This document shows, one piece after another, positions 2,585 to 19,569 of a stretch of 34,399 bases of DNA. Each line of letters begins with the position of its first letter. The first letter of the stretch is position 1. A program made the translations under genes and the position numbers. The stretch spans positions 1 through 34,399 of the forward strand of contig JAKSLL010000035.1 in NCBI GenBank assembly GCA_024401215.1, read 5' to 3'. The notes beneath the pieces are model-generated. The model searched no databases. It saw only the letters and a list, made by a program, of their open reading frames with translations, and had not been told where the DNA came from. The DNA is from Bacteroidaceae bacterium. GTDB lineage: Bacteria; Bacteroidota; Bacteroidia; Bacteroidales; Bacteroidaceae.

Positions 2585-3790
2585 TCAACCTCTTCTGTGC
2601 TTGTCGCCACGCATGACGATAAAGATGAAGAGGAGGATGGCGATGATGCTCATCAGCACGGTGAATGTCTTGTTTTGTTTTGACCTCTCAACGGCACCTT
2701 CGCGTTGCTCTTCGAAGAGTGAGTTGATTTTTACATTCATGTCGGCAACGCCTTTCTTTGTGTCAGCATGTATTATTGAGTCGTGGTGTGCGATTAGCTT
2801 CTTTTGTGTCTTGAAAGCCTGCTCCCATCTGCCGCATTTCTTCAGGATATCGATACGTCGGTTGAGTGCATCTTCCTTATTGCTGAGTGAGTCGCAAAGT
2901 GAGAGAGCTGCGTCAGTCTTTCCGTTGGCTGCGAGAGTCAGGATGCGCACGTTTGTCATGTCGTCCCTATATTGCTCATTGTTCTTTGGCTTGCATTTGC
3001 GTGCCTTCTCGGCTGTCTCGGCGAGAGCCTTGGTGTTGTTCATGAAGCAGCATTCTGCGATTAGTGTGTATGCATGTGCATTGTCTGGGTTCTCGCTGAC
3101 AGCAGCCTTGGCATTTTCAAGGCATTTGGTGTAGTCGCCCATCAAGGAGTAAGTCTTTGCCAAGTCGGCAAGAATTTCTGATATATGTGTTTTGTCTTTT
3201 TTGCATCGCTTTGCGGCTTCTAAAGACTCTTTCTGTAGTTCGAGTGCGCTTTTGTAGTCGTTGACCTTTATGTAGAGTTTAGAAAGCGCGCGTGTGCCGT
3301 AGTATATTCCCTCGTCATTATTGTTTCTTCTTGCTCCGCTGATGAGTTTCATGGCTACGCGTTCTGCTTGATAGGTGTGGCCGGTGTTGAGGAGAAACTC
3401 CACGATGAGGCTTCTGTCTTTGTAATACAGAGCGTCGAACTTGCATGCCTTGGCGAGCTGCAGCTGCTTGGCTATGTATTCGCAGAACGCCACAGAATCC
3501 TTGTTTACGAACGCTTGCTGTGAGTGTAGTGACATGCCGAAATACTGGTATGCGTCATCATCGTCGTCCTCTCCAGCTTCGATGAGCGAATCAGCAAAAG
3601 TTTCCACCCACTTCTCGGATATGTGCTCCATGGCGTAGTCATAGCGTTTGCATAACTTGGCAGGCGCGTCTTTCCAGTTGTCGGATGTTGTGCTCTGTGC
3701 TTTGGCATTGCTGATGAACGCCATAATAAAGAATGATATTATTGTGAGAATGCTGTACTTCATAACTTTCATCTTGTGTTGTTTCTTCAT
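2585..3790 (-). CDS. Exported TPR-repeat protein with a C-terminal membrane anchor
   Basis: The N-terminus is a signal peptide (hydrophobic run SILTIISFFIMAFI, then NAKAQ). The body is helical with TPR-like repeats, e.g. LSKLYIKVNDYKSALELQKE and LAKTYSLMGDYTKCLENAKA. A single hydrophobic helix near the end (VLMSIIAILLFIFIV) is followed by a basic tail, so the repeats should lie in the periplasm with the C-terminus anchored in the inner membrane. The layout resembles TPR domains joined to Bacteroidetes signalling proteins, but no kinase or DNA-binding output domain follows. The signal peptide could equally start at an internal ATG nine codons in. Function is unknown; it is monocistronic. Confidence 0.75.
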   Translation of the reverse strand: MKKQHKMKVMKYSILTIISFFIMAFISNAKAQSTTSDNWKDAPAKLCKRYDYAMEHISEKWVETFADSLIEAGEDDDDDAYQYFGMSLHSQQAFVNKDSVAFCEYIAKQLQLAKACKFDALYYKDRSLIVEFLLNTGHTYQAERVAMKLISGARRNNNDEGIYYGTRALSKLYIKVNDYKSALELQKESLEAAKRCKKDKTHISEILADLAKTYSLMGDYTKCLENAKAAVSENPDNAHAYTLIAECCFMNNTKALAETAEKARKCKPKNNEQYRDDMTNVRILTLAANGKTDAALSLCDSLSNKEDALNRRIDILKKCGRWEQAFKTQKKLIAHHDSIIHADTKKGVADMNVKINSLFEEQREGAVERSKQNKTFTVLMSIIAILLFIFIVMRGDKHRRG

Positions 3791-11141: not shown

Positions 11142-11249
11142 GACGGTGGAGATTTGCCGAGAGATGTAGCTATATATTTGAAATTTCATCATCATGCATT
11201 GACAGATGCGGAAGCTTGTGCTGCCATTGCATTGGAAAAACTATATTAA
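11142..11249 (+). pseudogene. C-terminal remnant of a DnaQ-like 3'-5' exonuclease
   Basis: In the frame ending at the TAA at 11247-11249, about 35 residues read without interruption and include HHHALTDAEACAAIALEKLY. This matches the exoIII region of DEDDh exonucleases (H-x-AL-x-DA-x-A), where the His and the second Asp are metal-binding catalytic residues. The frame is closed upstream by TAG at 11139-11141, and no exoI or exoII motif precedes it, so only the last quarter of the domain survives. It lies between the ATPase stop and the first DUF262 start and marks an insertion or deletion boundary. Confidence 0.6.
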
Positions 11250-11250
11250 T

Positions 11251-13053
11251 ATGAATACAATTAAAACAATTCCAATAGGGCAATTGATTTTAAACAAGGA
11301 AACGCCTAATCGCGAAGAACGAGTGGAGCATTACATAATTCCTTCATATCAACGAGGTTATAGATGGACAGATTTACATGTTCTGGCTCTTCTTGAGGAT
11401 ATTGATAATTTTTTGAAGAGTCAATCTGTTATGGGTGCAACTAAAGAATCTTACTGCTTGCAACCCGTGGTAGTGGTAGCACAAACGGATGAAAGCGGTG
11501 ATGTGGTTTGGGAAATTGTTGATGGCCAACAGCGTCTAACTACATTGTATCTTATCCTAAAAAGATTGGGAAAGAGAAGGTATAAGATCATCTTTGACAA
11601 GAGATATAAAAGTTCTCATTTCCTTGAGAACTTGTCTCCTGCAACTTATAACGATGACACTCCTGATTTCCACTTTATGAGTGAAGCTTATCGCTGTATA
11701 GACCAATGGTTTTGCGAGAAAGAGAATGAAGACATTGCTTATGCTGATGAATTTGCAACCACAATGCTTAAGCAAGTTCAAGTCATTTGGTATAATGTGA
11801 ACTTAATCACAAAAGACCAGAATGACCAAGAGTCGGAAAAGATTGATATTTTCAACAGACTTAACATAGGAAAGATTCCTCTTGAAGATGCAGAACTGGT
11901 TAGAGCTCTGTTGATGAGTAAGATTGAGGAGAAGACCGAACATGAGAAGTTGATGCGTCAAGCTGAATTTTCAAACGAATGGTATGAGATAGAGCATTGG
12001 CTACAACAACATGGAGTGTGGCGTTTTTTAACAAACAAATCCTATGCCAACCATATACAGCTGATCTTTGAATTACTTGCAAAGAACAAAAACTCAGAGA
12101 ATTATAATACATACAAATGGTTTGAGAAAGAGATAAGAAATTCTGTAAACGAGACTGAGCAAGCAGAATATCTTTGGAAAAGAGTAAAGCAAACATTCAG
12201 CAAATTCAGATATTGGTATAATGACAGGACTTTGTATCATTACATAGGTTTTCTCTTGTCTGCAAACTTTATTAAGATAGACGAAATACTGGAAAAATCA
12301 GAAACGGATAAACAGTCTTTTGGAAAATGGGTGTATTCTAAAGTTGACGAGTTCTTAAACGATGTTGACATTGAACAATTGTCGTATGAAGGAGATCAGA
12401 CATTATTAAAGAACACATTGCTTCTGTTTAATGTTTTATCCGTTCTTCAGTTAAAGGCAAACCCTCAAAATCGTTTTCCGTTTAATTTGTACAATGAAAT
12501 CAAGAAGGGAGAGAAATGGAGCTTGGAGCATATACATGCCCAAAAATCGCAGGATCCATTACAGCGTAAGGATGTGATTAAGAATTGGATCAAAGACACG
12601 CTGGATTCTATAGACAAGATAGATTTCATAGAGAAGACAGATGGCATTGATGGGGAAAAGTGTCAAGTAGATGTGAAGTCAATGAGGGAAAAGCTCTTGG
12701 CTATGAGTCAGCAAGAAGACATAGATAATGAGGAGTTTAACTTGTTAAGGTCGCAAATTGTAGATGCATTTGACTCTCCGTCAACAAAGCATCAGTTAGA
12801 TAACATGGCTCTTCTTTCTTGCCCTGATAATGCAAGTTTGAATAACGCTATTTTCCCTGTGAAAAGAGACCGTATAATTGAAATGGAAAGACAAGGAAAG
12901 TTTATTCCACCTTGTACAAGGAATGTGTTTCTCAAGATTTATAGTAAAGCCGACAATCAGCCATACTTTTGGAGTCATTCGGATAAGCAGGAGTATATCA
13001 ATGAGATAATAACAGTGTTTGATAAGTTCAAAAAGGAGAAAAATAATGGTTAA
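11251..13053 (+). CDS. DUF262-DUF1524 protein (GmrSD/BrxU/SspE-like nuclease)
   Basis: From the ATG at 11251 the protein is 600 residues. The DUF262 (ParB-like NTPase) part shows IPSYQRGYRW (30-39) and the hallmark DGQQRLTTL (91-99). The C-terminal DUF1524 nuclease has EHIH (426-429) and the second half N...F-P-V-K-R (about 531-539), the His-Me finger residues expected in GmrSD-type enzymes, which cut modified phage DNA. An earlier in-frame ATG at 11206 only re-reads the exonuclease remnant in another frame, so it is rejected. A TATATTTG box at 11173-11180 could be its promoter. The 3' end overlaps the next gene by 8 bp. The target modification cannot be told from sequence. Confidence 0.85.
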   Translation: MNTIKTIPIGQLILNKETPNREERVEHYIIPSYQRGYRWTDLHVLALLEDIDNFLKSQSVMGATKESYCLQPVVVVAQTDESGDVVWEIVDGQQRLTTLYLILKRLGKRRYKIIFDKRYKSSHFLENLSPATYNDDTPDFHFMSEAYRCIDQWFCEKENEDIAYADEFATTMLKQVQVIWYNVNLITKDQNDQESEKIDIFNRLNIGKIPLEDAELVRALLMSKIEEKTEHEKLMRQAEFSNEWYEIEHWLQQHGVWRFLTNKSYANHIQLIFELLAKNKNSENYNTYKWFEKEIRNSVNETEQAEYLWKRVKQTFSKFRYWYNDRTLYHYIGFLLSANFIKIDEILEKSETDKQSFGKWVYSKVDEFLNDVDIEQLSYEGDQTLLKNTLLLFNVLSVLQLKANPQNRFPFNLYNEIKKGEKWSLEHIHAQKSQDPLQRKDVIKNWIKDTLDSIDKIDFIEKTDGIDGEKCQVDVKSMREKLLAMSQQEDIDNEEFNLLRSQIVDAFDSPSTKHQLDNMALLSCPDNASLNNAIFPVKRDRIIEMERQGKFIPPCTRNVFLKIYSKADNQPYFWSHSDKQEYINEIITVFDKFKKEKNNG

Positions 13054-15196
13054 TAAACATACATTATGCTCACTTTGTGATGAGTATGACAAGATAGAAA
13101 TTCCAATTATACAAAGAGATTATGCACAGGGCAGAGAGGAACAATCTGACTTGCGCAATAGATTTGTCGAGTATCTTGTTACTGCCATGGAGGAAGGCAC
13201 TTGTATAGAGTTGGATTTTGTGTATGGCAATGAGCGAGAGGATGTTGACAAAGATGGGAGGACATTGCTGAAGACATTTATTCCAATTGATGGTCAACAA
13301 CGCCTCACTACACTTTGGCTTCTTCATTGGTTCCTGTCGGTACGCGAGGCAAAGCTGCATGACATGAGAAAGGTTCTTTCTAAATTCACTTATGAAACAC
13401 GCCCTGCAACTCATGACTTTTGTAAATATCTGATAAACGAAGAGTACCCAGCTAACAGTCTTTTAAACATAGATAGTTACATCAAGAATAGAAATTGGTT
13501 TGATCCAGAATGGTTGAACGATGGCTCTATCAATGGAATGTTGCGTATGCTGAAAACTTTTTCTGCATACTCATCATTGACAAATGGCAAGGTTAAGTTG
13601 GAACAGTTACTTTCTCCACAAAACGCAATTTCTTTCTATTTTGTTCCTTTGAAGCAGTTTGGGTTATCTGAAGAGCTTTACATAAGGATGAATGCAAGAG
13701 GAAAGATTCTAACAGAGTTTGAAAATTTCAAATCGGAATTTTATAAGATCGTGAAGAGTCATCCTCGACTTGAAGAGATAAAAGATAAAATGGAGTACGA
13801 TTGGGTCAGCCATCTTTGGAGCTACAGGAAAAAGAAGGTTTTTGTCACTGACGAATGCTTTATGAGTTTTCTGTGTTTTGTAACTCGTATGCTTTATTTC
13901 TCACAAGCGAAATATCGTTCAGAAGAGGGGTACGAAGATGATTTCACAAACTTCAATCTGCTTAGAAAAATATATTTTAACAATGAAAATGTCAATTTCT
14001 TAATCTTTGCATTTGATCATATACCTTTATTAAGCTCGTTTGACGATTTCTCGATTATCAGAGTAAAAGAGAAAAAATTGTCTTTGTCTGAAATTCTTAG
14101 TATGTCAATAAAGGGTGAGAACATGCAAATCGACCAATTTGTAGTTCTGTTTTCTGCCTTATCATATTTGTATAAACACCGTTCCGTATTGGGTGAAATC
14201 ACGGATTCGGAGAGACACACGTTTTATGATAATCTTAAAGACTATGTGAGGATTGTCCGTAATCTTATTGTAAACACGAAAGACAAATCAGAACGTGAAC
14301 AGCCAAGAATATTAAGAAGCGTAATCTATTTGGCGGAAAATGCGAATGTCTATGCAATCGTCAGAAAACCAGGTTTTAATCTTGAAGGTTTGCGCGATGC
14401 CCAATGCATAGAAGAAAACATTAAATCAAAGATAATTGAAAAATATCCTGATGCGAAACCACTGATTCAAAGAATAGAAGATGACCAACATTTCTACGGT
14501 AATATAATGCCAATACTTGCCAGTGTGTACACAAGTAGAGAAAAAGAAATAGACTGTTATGTTGTTAGTGATGAGGATGTTGACAATTTTGAAACTAAGC
14601 GGCTTGATGCAATATATCAGACTTATAAGATGTTGGCACAGGATGATTTCCACGCAATATGGGGAAATATGTTGAATTCGTCACTTTACACTCATTATAA
14701 ACCGGATGCGCGACTCATTTTTGACGAAGACTATGCAAAGCATCCTGCTGTGATGGCGTTGTCAGTCAAATACACGGATTGTAAGTTTGATAGCTTAGAT
14801 GAATTCCTGCAAAACGAAGAAAAGAAATTCGTGAAAAGAGTTTCTTCAAAATATTCGGAACTCAAAGAAGTGCGTGATGTGAAAGTCCAATTATATCTCC
14901 TTTACATATTAACTATAAGAGTTATGCAATGTGACAGATCCGATTTCTTTGCCAATGGCTGGTATAATTTTGGATGGCTCAAGAAGGAAAGTGGATTTAC
15001 GTCATTGTTTGACAATGGAATAGAAGGAGATCTGCGGTATAGTGAAGTCAATCCGATATTTCAGACATACAATTCTCAATTTAGGTATAGCTGGGGACTG
15101 AATTCTGAGCATAGTTTACCTTGTGAAATTGTTGGCAATGGCAGACCACAAAAGCCATGGGAAAAACTTAAAGAATGGGCAACCAAGCAAACTTAG
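13046..15196 (+). CDS. Second DUF262 protein, without a recognisable nuclease domain
   Basis: The ATG at 13046 (MVNKHTLCSL) lies inside the last codons of the preceding gene; a longer frame from a TTG at 13019 is not preferred. 716 residues. The N-terminal DUF262 domain has IPIIQRDYAQG near residue 20 and IDGQQRLTTLW near 90, and the middle has LYIRMNARGKILTEFENFK, a segment typical of this subgroup. The remaining ~450 residues are helical, and I find no EHI(H/x)P or N...KR motif of DUF1524. The overlap predicts translational coupling with the DUF262-DUF1524 partner, so the two probably form one system, with this subunit perhaps supplying NTPase or sensing. Confidence 0.82.
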   Translation: MVNKHTLCSLCDEYDKIEIPIIQRDYAQGREEQSDLRNRFVEYLVTAMEEGTCIELDFVYGNEREDVDKDGRTLLKTFIPIDGQQRLTTLWLLHWFLSVREAKLHDMRKVLSKFTYETRPATHDFCKYLINEEYPANSLLNIDSYIKNRNWFDPEWLNDGSINGMLRMLKTFSAYSSLTNGKVKLEQLLSPQNAISFYFVPLKQFGLSEELYIRMNARGKILTEFENFKSEFYKIVKSHPRLEEIKDKMEYDWVSHLWSYRKKKVFVTDECFMSFLCFVTRMLYFSQAKYRSEEGYEDDFTNFNLLRKIYFNNENVNFLIFAFDHIPLLSSFDDFSIIRVKEKKLSLSEILSMSIKGENMQIDQFVVLFSALSYLYKHRSVLGEITDSERHTFYDNLKDYVRIVRNLIVNTKDKSEREQPRILRSVIYLAENANVYAIVRKPGFNLEGLRDAQCIEENIKSKIIEKYPDAKPLIQRIEDDQHFYGNIMPILASVYTSREKEIDCYVVSDEDVDNFETKRLDAIYQTYKMLAQDDFHAIWGNMLNSSLYTHYKPDARLIFDEDYAKHPAVMALSVKYTDCKFDSLDEFLQNEEKKFVKRVSSKYSELKEVRDVKVQLYLLYILTIRVMQCDRSDFFANGWYNFGWLKKESGFTSLFDNGIEGDLRYSEVNPIFQTYNSQFRYSWGLNSEHSLPCEIVGNGRPQKPWEKLKEWATKQT

Positions 15197-15967: not shown

Positions 15968-15977
15968 AGTAATAAAA

Positions 15978-16027
15978 GACTCCTTCTGCACTTGGGCATC
16001 TCCCTCGCTATGGGGAGATGGCTGGTG
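15978..16027 (+). repeat. Diverged copy of the 53-bp repeat (left orientation)
   Basis: GACTCCTTCTGCACTTGGG and the following bases align with the repeat at 17658-17710, with substitutions and small indels. The TCTCCC...GGGGAGA hairpin is kept, while the first hairpin is decayed. It starts about 10 bp after the attenuator T-run. Confidence 0.6.
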
Positions 16028-16093
16028 ATGTGGGTCGCAAAAAGTTGGAAATTAATAACAATTAAATAAAGAAGGCTTGTAATCTGACCGAAT

Positions 16094-16141
16094 GGTTCTC
16101 CCCCATAGAGTGGGAGATGGCTGAAAGCCAGAGAGGGTCTT
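16094..16141 (-). repeat. Diverged copy of the 53-bp repeat (right orientation)
   Basis: This aligns with 18134-18186. Both internal hairpins are intact with changed sequence: TCTCCC...GGGAGA, and TGGCT-GAA-AGCCA where the other copy has TGCCC-GTA-GGGCA, so the stem changed on both sides. With 15978-16027 it forms an inverted pair enclosing about 66 bp without a gene, like a miniature derivative of the DUF559 element. It ends 12 bp before the leuA ATG. Confidence 0.6.
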
Positions 16142-16153
16142 CAATTATAATAT

Positions 16154-17653
16154 ATGGCAGATAGACTTTTTATTTTTGACACTACGCTTCGTGATGGCGA
16201 ACAGGTGCCAGGATGTCAGCTCAACACCGTTGAGAAGATCCAGGTAGCAAAGCAGCTAGAGATGCTTGGCGTAGATGTTATCGAGGCAGGATTCCCGATT
16301 TCAAGTCCTGGCGATTTCAATAGTGTTGTTGAAATCTCAAAGGCTGTTACATGGCCAACAATCTGTGCGCTCACTCGTGCAGTAGAGAAAGACATTGATG
16401 TTGCAGCTGAGGCTCTTCAGTATGCTAAGCATAAGCGTATCCACACAGGTATCGGCACTTCACCTTCACACATCAAGTATAAGTTCAACTCCACTCCAGA
16501 GGAGATCATTGAACGTGCTGTTGCTGCTGTGAAGTATGCTAAGCGATATGTGGAGGATGTTGAGTTCTACGCAGAAGATGCAGGCCGTACAGACAACGAG
16601 TATCTTGCTCGTGTCATTGACGCTGTGACAAAGGCGGGAGCTACGGTATGTAACATACCTGATACAACAGGATTCCGTGTTCCTAATGAATATCAGGAGA
16701 AGATCGCTTACCTCTACGAGCATGTTGACGCTTTTGCAGCAGGCAAGTCAATCCTTTCTACTCATTGTCACAACGACCTCGGCATGGCAACAGCCAACAC
16801 CGTAGCAGGTGTGCTTGGCGGTGCCCGTCAGGTAGAGGTGACGATAAATGGTATTGGTGAGCGTGCTGGTAATACATCTCTCGAGGAGGTTGCTATGATT
16901 TTCAAGCTCCACCCAGAATATAATATTGAGACAAACATCAATACAACAAAGATTTATCCAACATCTCGCATGATTTCGTCTCTCATGAATATGCCTGTTC
17001 AGCCAAACAAGGCTATTGTGGGTAAGAACGCTTTTGCTCACTCGTCAGGTATTCATCAGGATGGTGTGTTGAAGAATTCTGAGACATACGAGATTATGGA
17101 CCCTAAGGATGTGGGAATCGAAGAGGCGTCAATCGTGCTTACTGCGCGCTCAGGTCGTGCTGCTCTCAAATACCGCCTCCATATTAATGGCGTAGAGGTT
17201 GATGGCGAGAAGCTTGATAAGATTTATGCAGACTTCCTTGCGCTTGCCGACAAAAAGAAGGAGCTTACAGATGATGATATCCTTGTGCTTGCTGGTGCAG
17301 AACGTACAGAGGGCAAGAACATCAAGCTTGACTACCTCCAGGTGACAACAGGTAAGGGTGTTCGTTCTGTTGCTTCTATCGGCCTTGATATCGCAGGCGA
17401 GAAGTTTGAGGCAGCATCAAGCGGCAATGGCCCTGTGGATGCAGCAATCAATGCTCTCAAGGTGATCATCAAGCGCCAGATGACTCTTAAGGAATTCACT
17501 ATCCAGGCAATCTCGAAGGGTTCTGATGACCTTGGTAAGGTACACATGCAGGTTGAGTACGACAATCGCATCTACTATGGTTTTGGCGCTAACACAGACA
17601 TCGTAACTGCTTCTGTTGAGGCTTATATTGACGCAATTAATAAGTTTAAATAA
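16154..17653 (+). CDS. leuA: 2-isopropylmalate synthase LeuA
   Basis: LeuA condenses acetyl-CoA with 2-oxoisovalerate, the committed step of leucine synthesis. The catalytic TIM barrel starts with [12 protein letters not shown] (from residue 9) and has the metal-binding HCHND (204-208) and the family's NGIGERAGN motif. The C-terminal ~120 residues, including [11 protein letters not shown] and [14 protein letters not shown], form the regulatory dimer domain where leucine binds. 499 residues is standard for the bacterial type. It is the first structural gene after the attenuator, followed by the inserted DUF559 gene, leuC and leuD. leuB is absent from the window. ATG start. Confidence 0.95.
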
Positions 17654-17657
17654 AAGA

Positions 17658-17710
17658 AGACCCCCTCTGCCCTGCGGGCATCTCCCCCTCTATGGGGAGA
17701 AGGCTGGCGC
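17658..17710 (+). repeat. Left 53-bp inverted repeat of the DUF559 element
   Basis: Begins AGACCCCCTCTG, with two internal hairpins: TGCCC-TGC-GGGCA and TCTCCCC-CTCTAT-GGGGAGA, and ends GGCTGGCGC. It starts 4 bp after the leuA stop codon. Confidence 0.8.
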
Positions 17711-17731
17711 GATGAGGGCAAATGAACTTTT

Positions 17732-18106
17732 ATGATTAGGAATTATCAAACGGCTAGTTCGGACAGATATGGGTTGTTAAAGAGTTTTGCGAGAGAGAAC
17801 CGTAACAATCAGACCATTGCGGAGATTTGTTTATGGCAGCAGTTGCGTGGGGAAGCGTTGGGCGTGAAATTCAAGAGGCAGCACATCATTTATGATTTCA
17901 TAGCTGATTTTGTTTGTTTGGAGAAAAAACTTATCATAGAAGTAGATGGTGCTTACCATTTTACGGATTCACAAATTGAATACGATGCTTACAGAACGGA
18001 AAATCTAAAGCAGTTTGGTTTTCGAGTGATAAGGTTCACCAACGAGGAGGTCATAAATGAAACTAACACAGTAATATCAACAATTAAAGAAATAATCCAA
18101 AAATGA
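17732..18106 (+). CDS. DUF559 (Vsr-like PD-(D/E)XK) endonuclease-fold protein
   Basis: 124 residues with the complete DUF559 pattern: an initial helix with E-x-x-L-W-x-x-LR (31-39), [14 protein letters not shown] (47-60), the core [10 protein letters not shown] (67-76), [23 protein letters not shown] (85-107). Asp59, Glu70 and Asp72 are the likely metal ligands, as in Vsr-type nucleases; His51 and His76 are also conserved-looking. Activity has rarely been shown for this family. The gene lies between 53-bp inverted repeats and its TGA overlaps the leuC ATG (ATGA). It has no promoter of its own that I can see and would be transcribed with leuA and leuC. Confidence 0.85.
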
Positions 18107-19569
18107 ATACAGATAACAAGGTTTGCAATTCATGCGCCAGCCCTCTCCCCATAGAGGGGGAGATGCCCGTAGGGCAGAGGGGGTCTACCTTATTTGATAA
18201 AATTTGGGACGCACACGTTGTTCAGAACGTGGAGGACGGTCCTACACAATTATATATTGATCGTTTATATGCTCATGAGGTTACTTCGCCTCAGGCATTT
18301 GACACATTGAGAGACAAGGGCATTAAGGTGTTTCGCCCTGACCATGTCTATGCAATGCCTGACCACAACACACCTTCTGACCAGCAGGAGAGAATAGATG
18401 ACCCTGTGGGACGCAAGCAGGTGGAGACTCTCGCAGCAAACTGCGCAGAGTTCGGCATAAAGCACTTCGCTATGGGCACAAAGGACAATGGCATCATCCA
18501 TGTTGTTGGTCCTGAAAAGGCACTCTCTCTTCCTGGCATGACTATCGTGTGTGGTGACTCTCACACTTCCACTCATGGTGCTGTAGGTGCTATTGCTATG
18601 GGTATCGGTACAAGTGAGGTTGCCCAGGTGCTTGCTTCACAATGCATCCTTCAGAGCAAGCCAAAGACCATGCGCATTAATATTGAGGGTACACTCCCAG
18701 AGGGTACAACAGCAAAGGATGTGGCTCTCTACATAATGGCTCAGATGACAACCTCTGGTGCTACTGGCTATGCTGTCGAGTATGCTGGCTCTGCCATCCG
18801 CAATATGAGCATGGAAGGTCGTTTGACGCTCTCTAACCTCTCTATCGAGATGGGTTCACGTGCAGGTCTTATTGCACCTGATGAAATAACTTTCGCTTAC
18901 CTCAAAGATCGTGAGTACGCTCCAAAGGGTGAAGCTTGGGACAAGGCTGTTGAGGAATGGAAGATGCTCAAGAGCGATGACGATGCCGTGTTCGACAAAG
19001 AGGTCACTTACCGTGCAGAAGACATTGCTCCTCGCATCACATACGGTACAAACCCTGGTGCTGGTATTGCAATTGACGAATGCATTCCAACAACTGATGG
19101 CATGAGCGAGTCAGAGAAGGAGCAGTTCCTTGGCATGCTCGACTATATGCAGTTCAAGCCAGGTCAGAAGCTTGAAGGCACACCTGTTGACTACTGCTTC
19201 CTTGGTGCTTGTACTAACGGCCGTATCGAGGACTTCCGTGCATTCGCATCTGTTGTGAAGGGCAAGAAGAAGGCTGACAGCGTAGTGGCATGGCTCGTGC
19301 CTGGTTCATGGCTCGTGCGCCAGCAGATTATTGATGAGGGCATTGACAAGATTCTTGAAGAGGCAGGTTTCGAACTCCGTCTCCCATCTTGTTCAAGCTG
19401 TCTTGCTATGAATCCAGACAAGGTGCCAGCAGGCAAGCTCTCAATCTCTACCAGCAACCGTAACTTTGTTGGTCGTCAGGGACCTGGTGCTCGTACCATT
19501 CTTGCTTCTCCACTTGTTGTGGCTGCAAGTGCTATCACAGGAGTCATCACAGATCCAAGAAAACTCTAG
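18103..19569 (+). CDS. leuC: 3-isopropylmalate dehydratase large subunit LeuC, with a repeat-encoded N-terminus
   Basis: LeuC and LeuD isomerise 2- to 3-isopropylmalate using a 4Fe-4S cluster. The ligands are visible as C370 (in GACTNGR) and C430/C433 (in SCSSC), and [10 protein letters not shown] is present. Normal LeuC proteins start within a few residues of [11 protein letters not shown]; here about 26 extra residues precede it, translated from the inverted repeat at 18134-18186 ([17 protein letters not shown]). Possible starts are the ATG at 18103, overlapping the DUF559 stop, or the ATG at 18163, which lies inside the repeat and gives [16 protein letters not shown]. The core is intact, so the enzyme is probably active. 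leuD follows after 108 bp. Confidence 0.93.
18134..18186 (-). repeat. Right 53-bp inverted repeat, inside the leuC reading frame
   Basis: Reverse complement of 17658-17710 with two differences. It carries the hairpins TCTCCCC/GGGGAGA and TGCCC/GGGCA, the latter around GTA. It is open in the leuC frame and contributes an in-frame ATG at 18163. Confidence 0.8.

Follow-up and report, generated by a model that had tools for sequence, protein, structure and literature searches.

A DUF559 nuclease gene boxed by REP-like inverted repeats between leuA and leuC is probably a compact mobile element

A candidate mobile element at the leuA-leuC junction

We examined a 34,399-nucleotide stretch of DNA from a Bacteroidaceae bacterium (hereafter the window) and found at its leuA-leuC junction a locus that is best read as a compact mobile element, in which two inverted REP-like ends box a 124-aa nuclease that would drive movement in a manner resembling both REP/RAYT systems and homing, with cleavage as a presumed step. 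We assign this reading a probability of about 0.72. Its mobile-element part is well supported by the sequence comparisons described below, and that the nuclease itself performs the movement is our best inference from the same comparisons. The left terminal repeat (17658..17710, + strand) consists of an outer tag, AGACCCCC, and the hairpins TGCCC/GGGCA and TCTCCCC/GGGGAGA, and the right terminal repeat (18134..18186, - strand) is an inverted copy of the left, identical at 51 of 53 positions when the agreement was recomputed. A repeat finder drew the arms at 58 nt (17653-17710 and 18134-18191, 93% identity), and this pair scored 100, against scores of 27 or less for all 586 other placements of the same geometry in the window. 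The sole open reading frame of at least 80 aa between the repeats (17732..18106, + strand) matches Pfam DUF559 (E 7e-34) and is assigned by profile and fold to the Vsr/EDxHD-related PD-(D/E)XK nucleases; there is no transposase gene in the element. NCBIfam profiles identify the neighbours as leuA (2-isopropylmalate synthase, 16154..17653, + strand), which lies upstream of the insertion, leuC (3-isopropylmalate dehydratase large subunit, 18103..19569, + strand) and leuD. A previous sequence-only reading of this DNA had described a single DUF559 gene, free of any transposase, inserted between leuA and leuC and bounded by repeats with 51 of 53 matching positions and two hairpins each, and all of these points were borne out.

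The leuC frame opens inside the element at 18103, where its start codon overlaps the DUF559 stop, and crosses the right repeat as an in-frame linker of 28 residues (18103..18186, + strand), so the right repeat cannot be called purely intergenic; the element start and linker stand in place of the MGK start found in empty relatives. A related repeat lies 5′ of leuA as the left copy (15970..16025, + strand) of a gene-less pair at approximately 15970-16145. This left copy aligns to the window's left repeat with a score of 61, and a degenerate right copy (16096..16145, - strand), placed by eye, matches the left copy weakly (score 28). Together with a further related copy without a gene on contig C90, it agrees with the expectation that the repeat would recur elsewhere in the genome. 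The source assembly contains three small DUF559 genes and a fourth, weak match inside a large ORF. All three small genes are boxed by inverted repeats, at leuA-leuC, at ilvD-ilvB (a copy with a stop) and 5′ of uxuA, and the repeats at the latter two sites differ in sequence from those of the window and have the same layout of a tag and a C-rich hairpin. The assemblies used here are mostly MAGs, and the source assembly (4.35 Mb in 234 contigs, 7% contamination; genus relatives approximately 2.1-3.7 Mb) is possibly a mixed bin. Separately, the window encodes two adjacent, slightly overlapping GmrSD_N (PF03235) proteins (11206-13053 and 13019-15196), which are candidate defence or restriction genes.

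Occupied, empty and decayed sites within the genus

A leuC match was obtained in 43 of 45 genomes of the genus, and the junctions upstream of it, classified by eye with two doubly listed genomes counted once, comprised 29 empty sites, 7 full elements, 1 gene-less pair, 4 remnants that keep a repeat tip at one end or at both, and 2 spacers of other kinds. The empty junctions are short, with leuC starting ATGGGAAAG or a near variant. At argG-argC, matched in 40 of 45 genomes, we read 31 by eye (30 loci plus genome G013) and assigned 16 as short and empty, 5 as full, 1 as decayed, 1 as a gene-less pair and 8 as other or unaligned. Judged from these alignments, genomes of the genus differ in whether a given fixed site holds the unit from repeat to repeat, the occupied and empty alleles at leuC and argC being found between species of one genus. 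The uninterrupted leuA-leuC junction that the sequence-only reading had looked for in relatives was thus found in 29 of 43 genomes, and none of the three outcomes named beforehand as counting against the element occurred, namely no other copies of the repeat, no homologues linked to repeats, and no empty junction.

Nuclease fragments persist at two of these sites, the decayed argC element at locus L245 (E 2.8e-11) and the leuC pair that has no gene, L154 (E 2.4e-4), and profile matches revealed none in L256, L146, L147 or the window's gene-less pair 5′ of leuA; gene-less pairs are therefore traceable to internal deletion in some cases, not all. No target-site duplication was visible by eye at leuC, at argC or at the two copies of locus L116 described below. 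Approximately 6-9 bp of the target start region are lost at the leuC and argC junctions (by eye), a loss that names no mechanism.

Association of DUF559 genes with inverted repeats

To define how general the arrangement is, we used a first set of 125 DUF559 loci, which remained from 142 hits after 17 with identical cores were dropped (near-identical loci were kept). An inverted repeat with a local-alignment score of at least 30 spans the DUF559 gene in 85 of 125 loci, in line with the prediction that homologues in relatives would sit between such repeats, compared with 27 of 1922 shifted placements of the same size in the same loci. At a score of at least 50 the counts were 53/125 and 3/1922, respectively. 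The 40 loci with no inverted repeat at score 30 include all six recG copies. Of 296 Bacteroidota genomes sampled, 126 contain DUF559 at E<=1e-15, and a second set of 30 Bacteroidota loci, drawn from the best-scoring DUF559 genes of the 296 genomes and having no identical core in common with the first set, showed inverted repeats in 19 of 30 loci versus 0 of 30 cold-shock genes. Swapping flanks among DUF559 loci also produced matches at score 30 (155/2000 in the first set, 103/1000 in the second) because a repeat theme is common to DUF559 loci; this theme inflates the flank swaps, which makes shifted windows and cold-shock genes the better basis for comparison. A perfect stem of at least 6 bp is present in 113 of 132 arms compared with 230 of 2640 letter-shuffled arms, and 37 different left stems occur among 58 elements. 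The hairpin is retained while its sequence changes.

Insertion with preservation of the host reading frame

The native start codon is missing in every full copy at leuC (7/7) and argC (5/5), where an element ATG, overlapping or just past the DUF559 stop, opens a frame that continues via the right repeat into the host gene. The gene-less pair at argC (L256) leaves the native start intact. Frame classes were assigned for the 81 loci whose repeat reaches score 30 and whose right arm lies within 250 bp: 32 have the element-ATG layout, 13 lie wholly in frame within a longer protein and 6 are direct fusions of DUF559 to the next gene; in a further 21 the next ORF begins at the repeat, beyond it or without an ATG, and the last 9 lack an ORF at this position. 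DUF559 lies inside genes in 28 of 125 loci of the first set and 11 of 30 of the second. Pfam matches place it within LeuS, RecG, IleS-type, MiaB-type, mutase and AAA-helicase proteins and at the N-terminus of guanylate kinase. In a Pedobacter glucosidilyticus MAG, LeuS carries an insertion of approximately 170 residues relative to LeuS 1h3n, between positions 235 and 238 of the latter, and RecG of Flavobacterium celericrescens carries one of approximately 150 relative to RecG 1gm5, between positions 514 and 519. The insertions stay harmless in one of two ways: the element supplies its own start codon and keeps a frame open, or it is readable along its whole length and sits in frame. Inteins were considered and rejected, as no protein-splicing (Hint) domain was found in the 7 fused ORFs scanned.

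Two further observations concern coding insertions. In mutase genes at L086 and L087, gene-less repeat pairs encode in-frame peptides of the form LTPALSKGEG...LSFGEDLGEA at several places in one gene. At L275, L279 and L288, DUF559 stands in frame directly before GVIWHTQGSGKSLSM, a Walker A motif, in what appears by eye to be the type I restriction gene hsdR. Names for ilvD, ilvB, leuB, uxuA, mnmA, carB, tsaC, argG, argC, metH, hsdR, korB and others were likewise given by eye from the peptide, and those for LeuS, RecG, the IleS-type, MiaB-type, mutase and AAA-helicase proteins, guanylate kinase, leuA, leuC and leuD were checked by profile or PDB match.

The DUF559 enzyme

Pfam labels DUF559 as a protein of unknown function. 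A profile built from 43 DUF559 proteins matched 3hrl at E 1.9e-30 and, at E 1.7e-7, the homing endonuclease I-Bth0305I (3r3p). Foldseek searches with a predicted fold (pLDDT 83) returned 3hrl (1e-7) and then 3r3p (3.5e-4), with Vsr (1cw0) at 0.03, behind mitoribosomal proteins and PvuRts1I-type enzymes (0.01-0.02). By profile and predicted fold, DUF559 is thus homologous to I-Bth0305I (described in PDB titles and PMC3943268). Eleven positions are invariant in the 43 proteins (T28, E31, W35, D59, E70, D72, G73, H76, D85, R101 and N104). Median dN/dS was 0.12 in the leuC group (12 of 136 pairs computable, many being saturated), 0.11 in recG (14/15) and 0.10 in argC (16/28), and these low values indicate that the nuclease is kept by purifying selection, even when locked inside RecG. 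A reading as a defence gene was discarded, since PADLOC matched nothing except its homing endonuclease model (E 2.8e-5). Published excerpts place YcjD near Vsr (PMC1189080), assign a DUF559 gene to the EDxHD homing-endonuclease family (PMC9403480) and describe Caulobacter VsrA, the one experimentally studied DUF559 protein in the texts covered, as a DUF559 protein of the PD-(D/E)XK type, proposed as a mismatch-repair-type nuclease, that triggers an SOS response upon methylation loss (PMC12907096).

Movement to new sites and the role of the ends

Support for the earlier proposal that the element moves as a unit comes from genome G064, where two units (L116) lie on one contig, beside leuC and beside a second leuA-like gene. 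The two 508 bp copies are 87% identical, their similarity spans from AGACCC to GGGTC, which are the repeat tips, their flanks are unrelated, and they are sisters in the DUF559 tree (100/99). Among the other aligned pairs at different places, similarity sets in close to the repeat tip for L108 with itself and for L022/L109 and does not for the two pairs of genome G085; the right ends of all of these run on without stopping at the repeat tip, and the pair L108/L119 aligns within the gene only. In a tree of 121 rows labelled by target gene in 19 groups, which had few alignment columns for that number of rows, the labels required 22 changes (all 19 groups) versus 55.7 in shuffles, so same-site copies cluster. 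Part of this clustering is surely vertical descent. The leuC, argC, uxuA and gmk groups and one transporter group each require at least 2 changes by starred branches, and such splits mean repeated gain or loss of copies at the same sites, the tree being silent on which.

Repeats also occur without the gene. An exact pattern of the window repeat type gave 82 matches at 81 distinct sites in 21 of the 45 genus genomes, and the reversed control pattern gave 0. Counted by hand, 14 of the 81 sites adjoin DUF559, and the gene is present in 16 of the 21 genomes with the pattern versus 6 of the 24 without (Fisher p 0.0009). Five genomes have the exact pattern with no DUF559 at E<=1e-15, including G030 with 13 sites. 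Of 23 pattern loci away from DUF559, 15 have an inverted partner that reaches score 30 and lies no more than 700 bp away, a count made with no control and with one pair counted from both sides.

These observations bear on pure homing, in which DUF559 would be a free-standing homing endonuclease for each conserved gene and the repeats hitchhiking linkers. Such an account overlaps with the mobile-element reading, with which it is compatible, and draws on the homology to I-Bth0305I, the conserved-gene targets and the clustering of same-site copies in the tree. We nevertheless regard it as a possible but rather unlikely full explanation, given the many sites that have repeats and no gene (81 sites, 14 beside DUF559) and the recent jump of L116 to a new gene. 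Taken together, the gene-less repeats and this jump suggest that the ends matter.

Other nuclease families and the choice of engine

GIY-YIG genes of Bacteroidota (L297-L326) were taken as a negative control and failed as such, inverted repeats at score 30 being present in 15 of 29 loci (L306 was too short to test), and the cold-shock genes (0/30) therefore served as a second control. Since GIY-YIG genes are flanked about as often, flanking repeats are not unique to DUF559. The GIY-YIG repeats are mostly of their own type, TGTCATCCTGAGC...GTCGAAGG, with a TCGA core. This core is present in 11 of 14 GIY-YIG arms (14 of the 15 loci, without L321, which is near a contig end) versus 2 of 85 DUF559 arms, and C-rich runs are present in 80/85 DUF559 arms versus 1/14 GIY-YIG arms. 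At argG-argC of G031 (L257:915-1460), a hot spot also used by DUF559 elements, a PDDEXK_3 gene lies within perfect 41-bp A+T-rich inverted repeats of yet another sequence. Each nuclease family thus seems, from these comparisons, to have its own ends, which argues for a causal pairing of nuclease and repeat.

The same pairing weakens the idea that an HUH (IS200/RAYT-type) transposase encoded elsewhere moves the REP-like ends with DUF559 as a passenger. The architecture does resemble REPINs, and a Y1 transposase match above the Pfam cut-off occurs in 14 of 45 genus genomes, the source genome included. Yet it is DUF559 itself that sits, conserved, between the repeats, and a different nuclease family carries a different repeat. 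Among the genomes with the exact pattern, a Y1 match was counted by hand in 9 of 21 versus DUF559 in 16 of 21, absences being soft because many assemblies are incomplete. As Y1 matches track the repeat less well than DUF559 does, we rejected a RAYT/HUH engine and consider a passenger role for the nuclease improbable. That DUF559 is a Vsr-like repair nuclease, the palindromes being terminators or regulatory repeats spread via ordinary recombination between dispersed copies, is equally improbable, for the fold and profile similarity to Vsr (PMC1189080, in part) and the SOS response elicited by Caulobacter VsrA on methylation loss (as excerpted from PMC12907096) stand against patchy occupancy of fixed sites, unit breakpoints at repeat tips, in-frame insertion within essential-type enzymes and several copies per genome at different genes.

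For the nuclease-driven mobile element, we propose that ends composed of an outer tag and GC-rich hairpins would serve a PD-(D/E)XK nuclease of the Vsr/EDxHD branch that cuts the unoccupied target and/or the hairpin ends, the element then being copied in by recombinational repair as in homing. Gene-less pairs would be its non-autonomous relatives, as REPINs are to RAYTs, and could arise via internal deletion of the nuclease. Insertion would be tolerated when the element's own start codon and open frame replace the first codons of the next gene or, alternatively, when the element is open from end to end and lies in frame inside a protein.

Comparison with known systems

The sequence-only reading had likened the locus to REP elements and their RAYT enzyme with an unrelated nuclease in its place, and this comparison holds: flanking palindromes and gene-less copies are present and the enzyme is PD-(D/E)XK, not HUH. 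As in REP/REPIN and RAYT systems, tagged palindromes form inverted pairs around a single nuclease gene, together with dispersed gene-less pairs. The enzyme differs, being of the PD-(D/E)XK/Vsr type rather than HUH-Y1 (TnpAREP), and the window ends are without a GTAG foot. REPs inside genes and in frame are reported for one RAYT subclass in the available text of PMC6006769. The element shares with I-Bth0305I/EDxHD homing endonucleases a homologous catalytic domain, conserved-gene targets and occupied and empty alleles; unlike them, it is without a visible intron or intein, is bounded by hairpin repeats, and either brings a start codon or becomes a domain that is not spliced out. Rickettsia palindromic elements (RPE) also lie in frame in protein genes, a trait found in 32 + 13 + 6 of the 81 frame-classified DUF559 loci that are read through, whereas the part of the RPE source available to us mentions no nuclease gene between the palindromes (PMC10969869). 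Insertion sequences and classical MITEs are unlike the window element in that it has no transposase gene and no target-site duplication was seen. Caulobacter VsrA is alike in being a DUF559 protein of the PD-(D/E)XK type and unlike in its proposed role as a mismatch-repair nuclease, as far as the excerpted text goes (PMC12907096).

A link of DUF559 or YcjD to palindromic repeats or in-frame insertion was not found in the portion of the full-text literature covered. A nuclease gene boxed by palindromes that enters gene starts and interiors without breaking the genes seems to be an undescribed genome parasite. If the reading is true, REP-like repeats gain a partner that is not an HUH enzyme, and central genes (leuS, recG, ileS) can take up a mobile element without splicing, via an open frame or a start codon of the element's own. 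If DUF559 drives palindromic repeats, it becomes a candidate origin for orphan repeats such as that beside E. coli ycjD.

DUF559 loci in Escherichia coli and other bacteria

In phage and plasmid collections, searches yielded 42 records (39 from plasmids and 3 from phages), and 14 of them were examined. These 14 loci come from across phyla, and 7 have an inverted repeat with a score of at least 30, one of which (on a gut phage contig) is not C-rich. The loci of Azospirillum, Sinorhizobium, Shinella and Methylobacterium carry a strong C-rich repeat pair on one side of DUF559, and those of Photobacterium and Synechocystis have weak repeats. A generic hairpin pattern gave 0-10 forward matches per genome or record in the 12 searched, so high copy number was not seen there. 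The E. coli gene, ycjD, has an A+T-rich palindrome upstream and C-rich palindromes downstream; C-rich repeats are thus on a single side of DUF559 in E. coli and in the four alphaproteobacteria.

One of the E. coli K-12 palindromes lies approximately 158 bp downstream of ycjD (NC_000913, approximately 1351189-1351249, L296; L197:3500-3560) and is matched in 5375 of 5426 E. coli genomes, with a median of 18 places per genome and at most 32. BoxC is present in 22 to 32 copies according to the available part of PMC2267715, and by copy number the palindrome adjoining ycjD is BoxC-like, falling in the BoxC range. In the rhizobial case, the likeness is that a Sinorhizobium DUF559 gene adjoins a pair like the window repeat, which may be related to RIME. 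At these E. coli and rhizobial loci, unlike in the window, C-rich repeats are confined to a single side of the gene. We give even odds to a broader proposal of a general class of bacterial elements, in which small unrelated nucleases (DUF559/Vsr-type, GIY-YIG and PDDEXK_3), each enclosed by its own terminal palindromes and specific for them, would travel with these ends as single units and settle, in frame, at gene starts and in protein loops. Non-autonomous relatives of such elements would then include some orphan repeats (E. coli BoxC with YcjD, rhizobial RIME-like pairs).

Two minor observations belong to these loci. A partial copy of the ycjD-adjacent palindrome overlaps the 3′ end of ycjD itself. 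In Sinorhizobium (L195, approximately 3347-3500), the inverted pair adjoining the DUF559 gene reads ACCCCCTCTGCCC...GGGCATCTCCCCC, is very like the window repeat, and is perhaps a RIME element.
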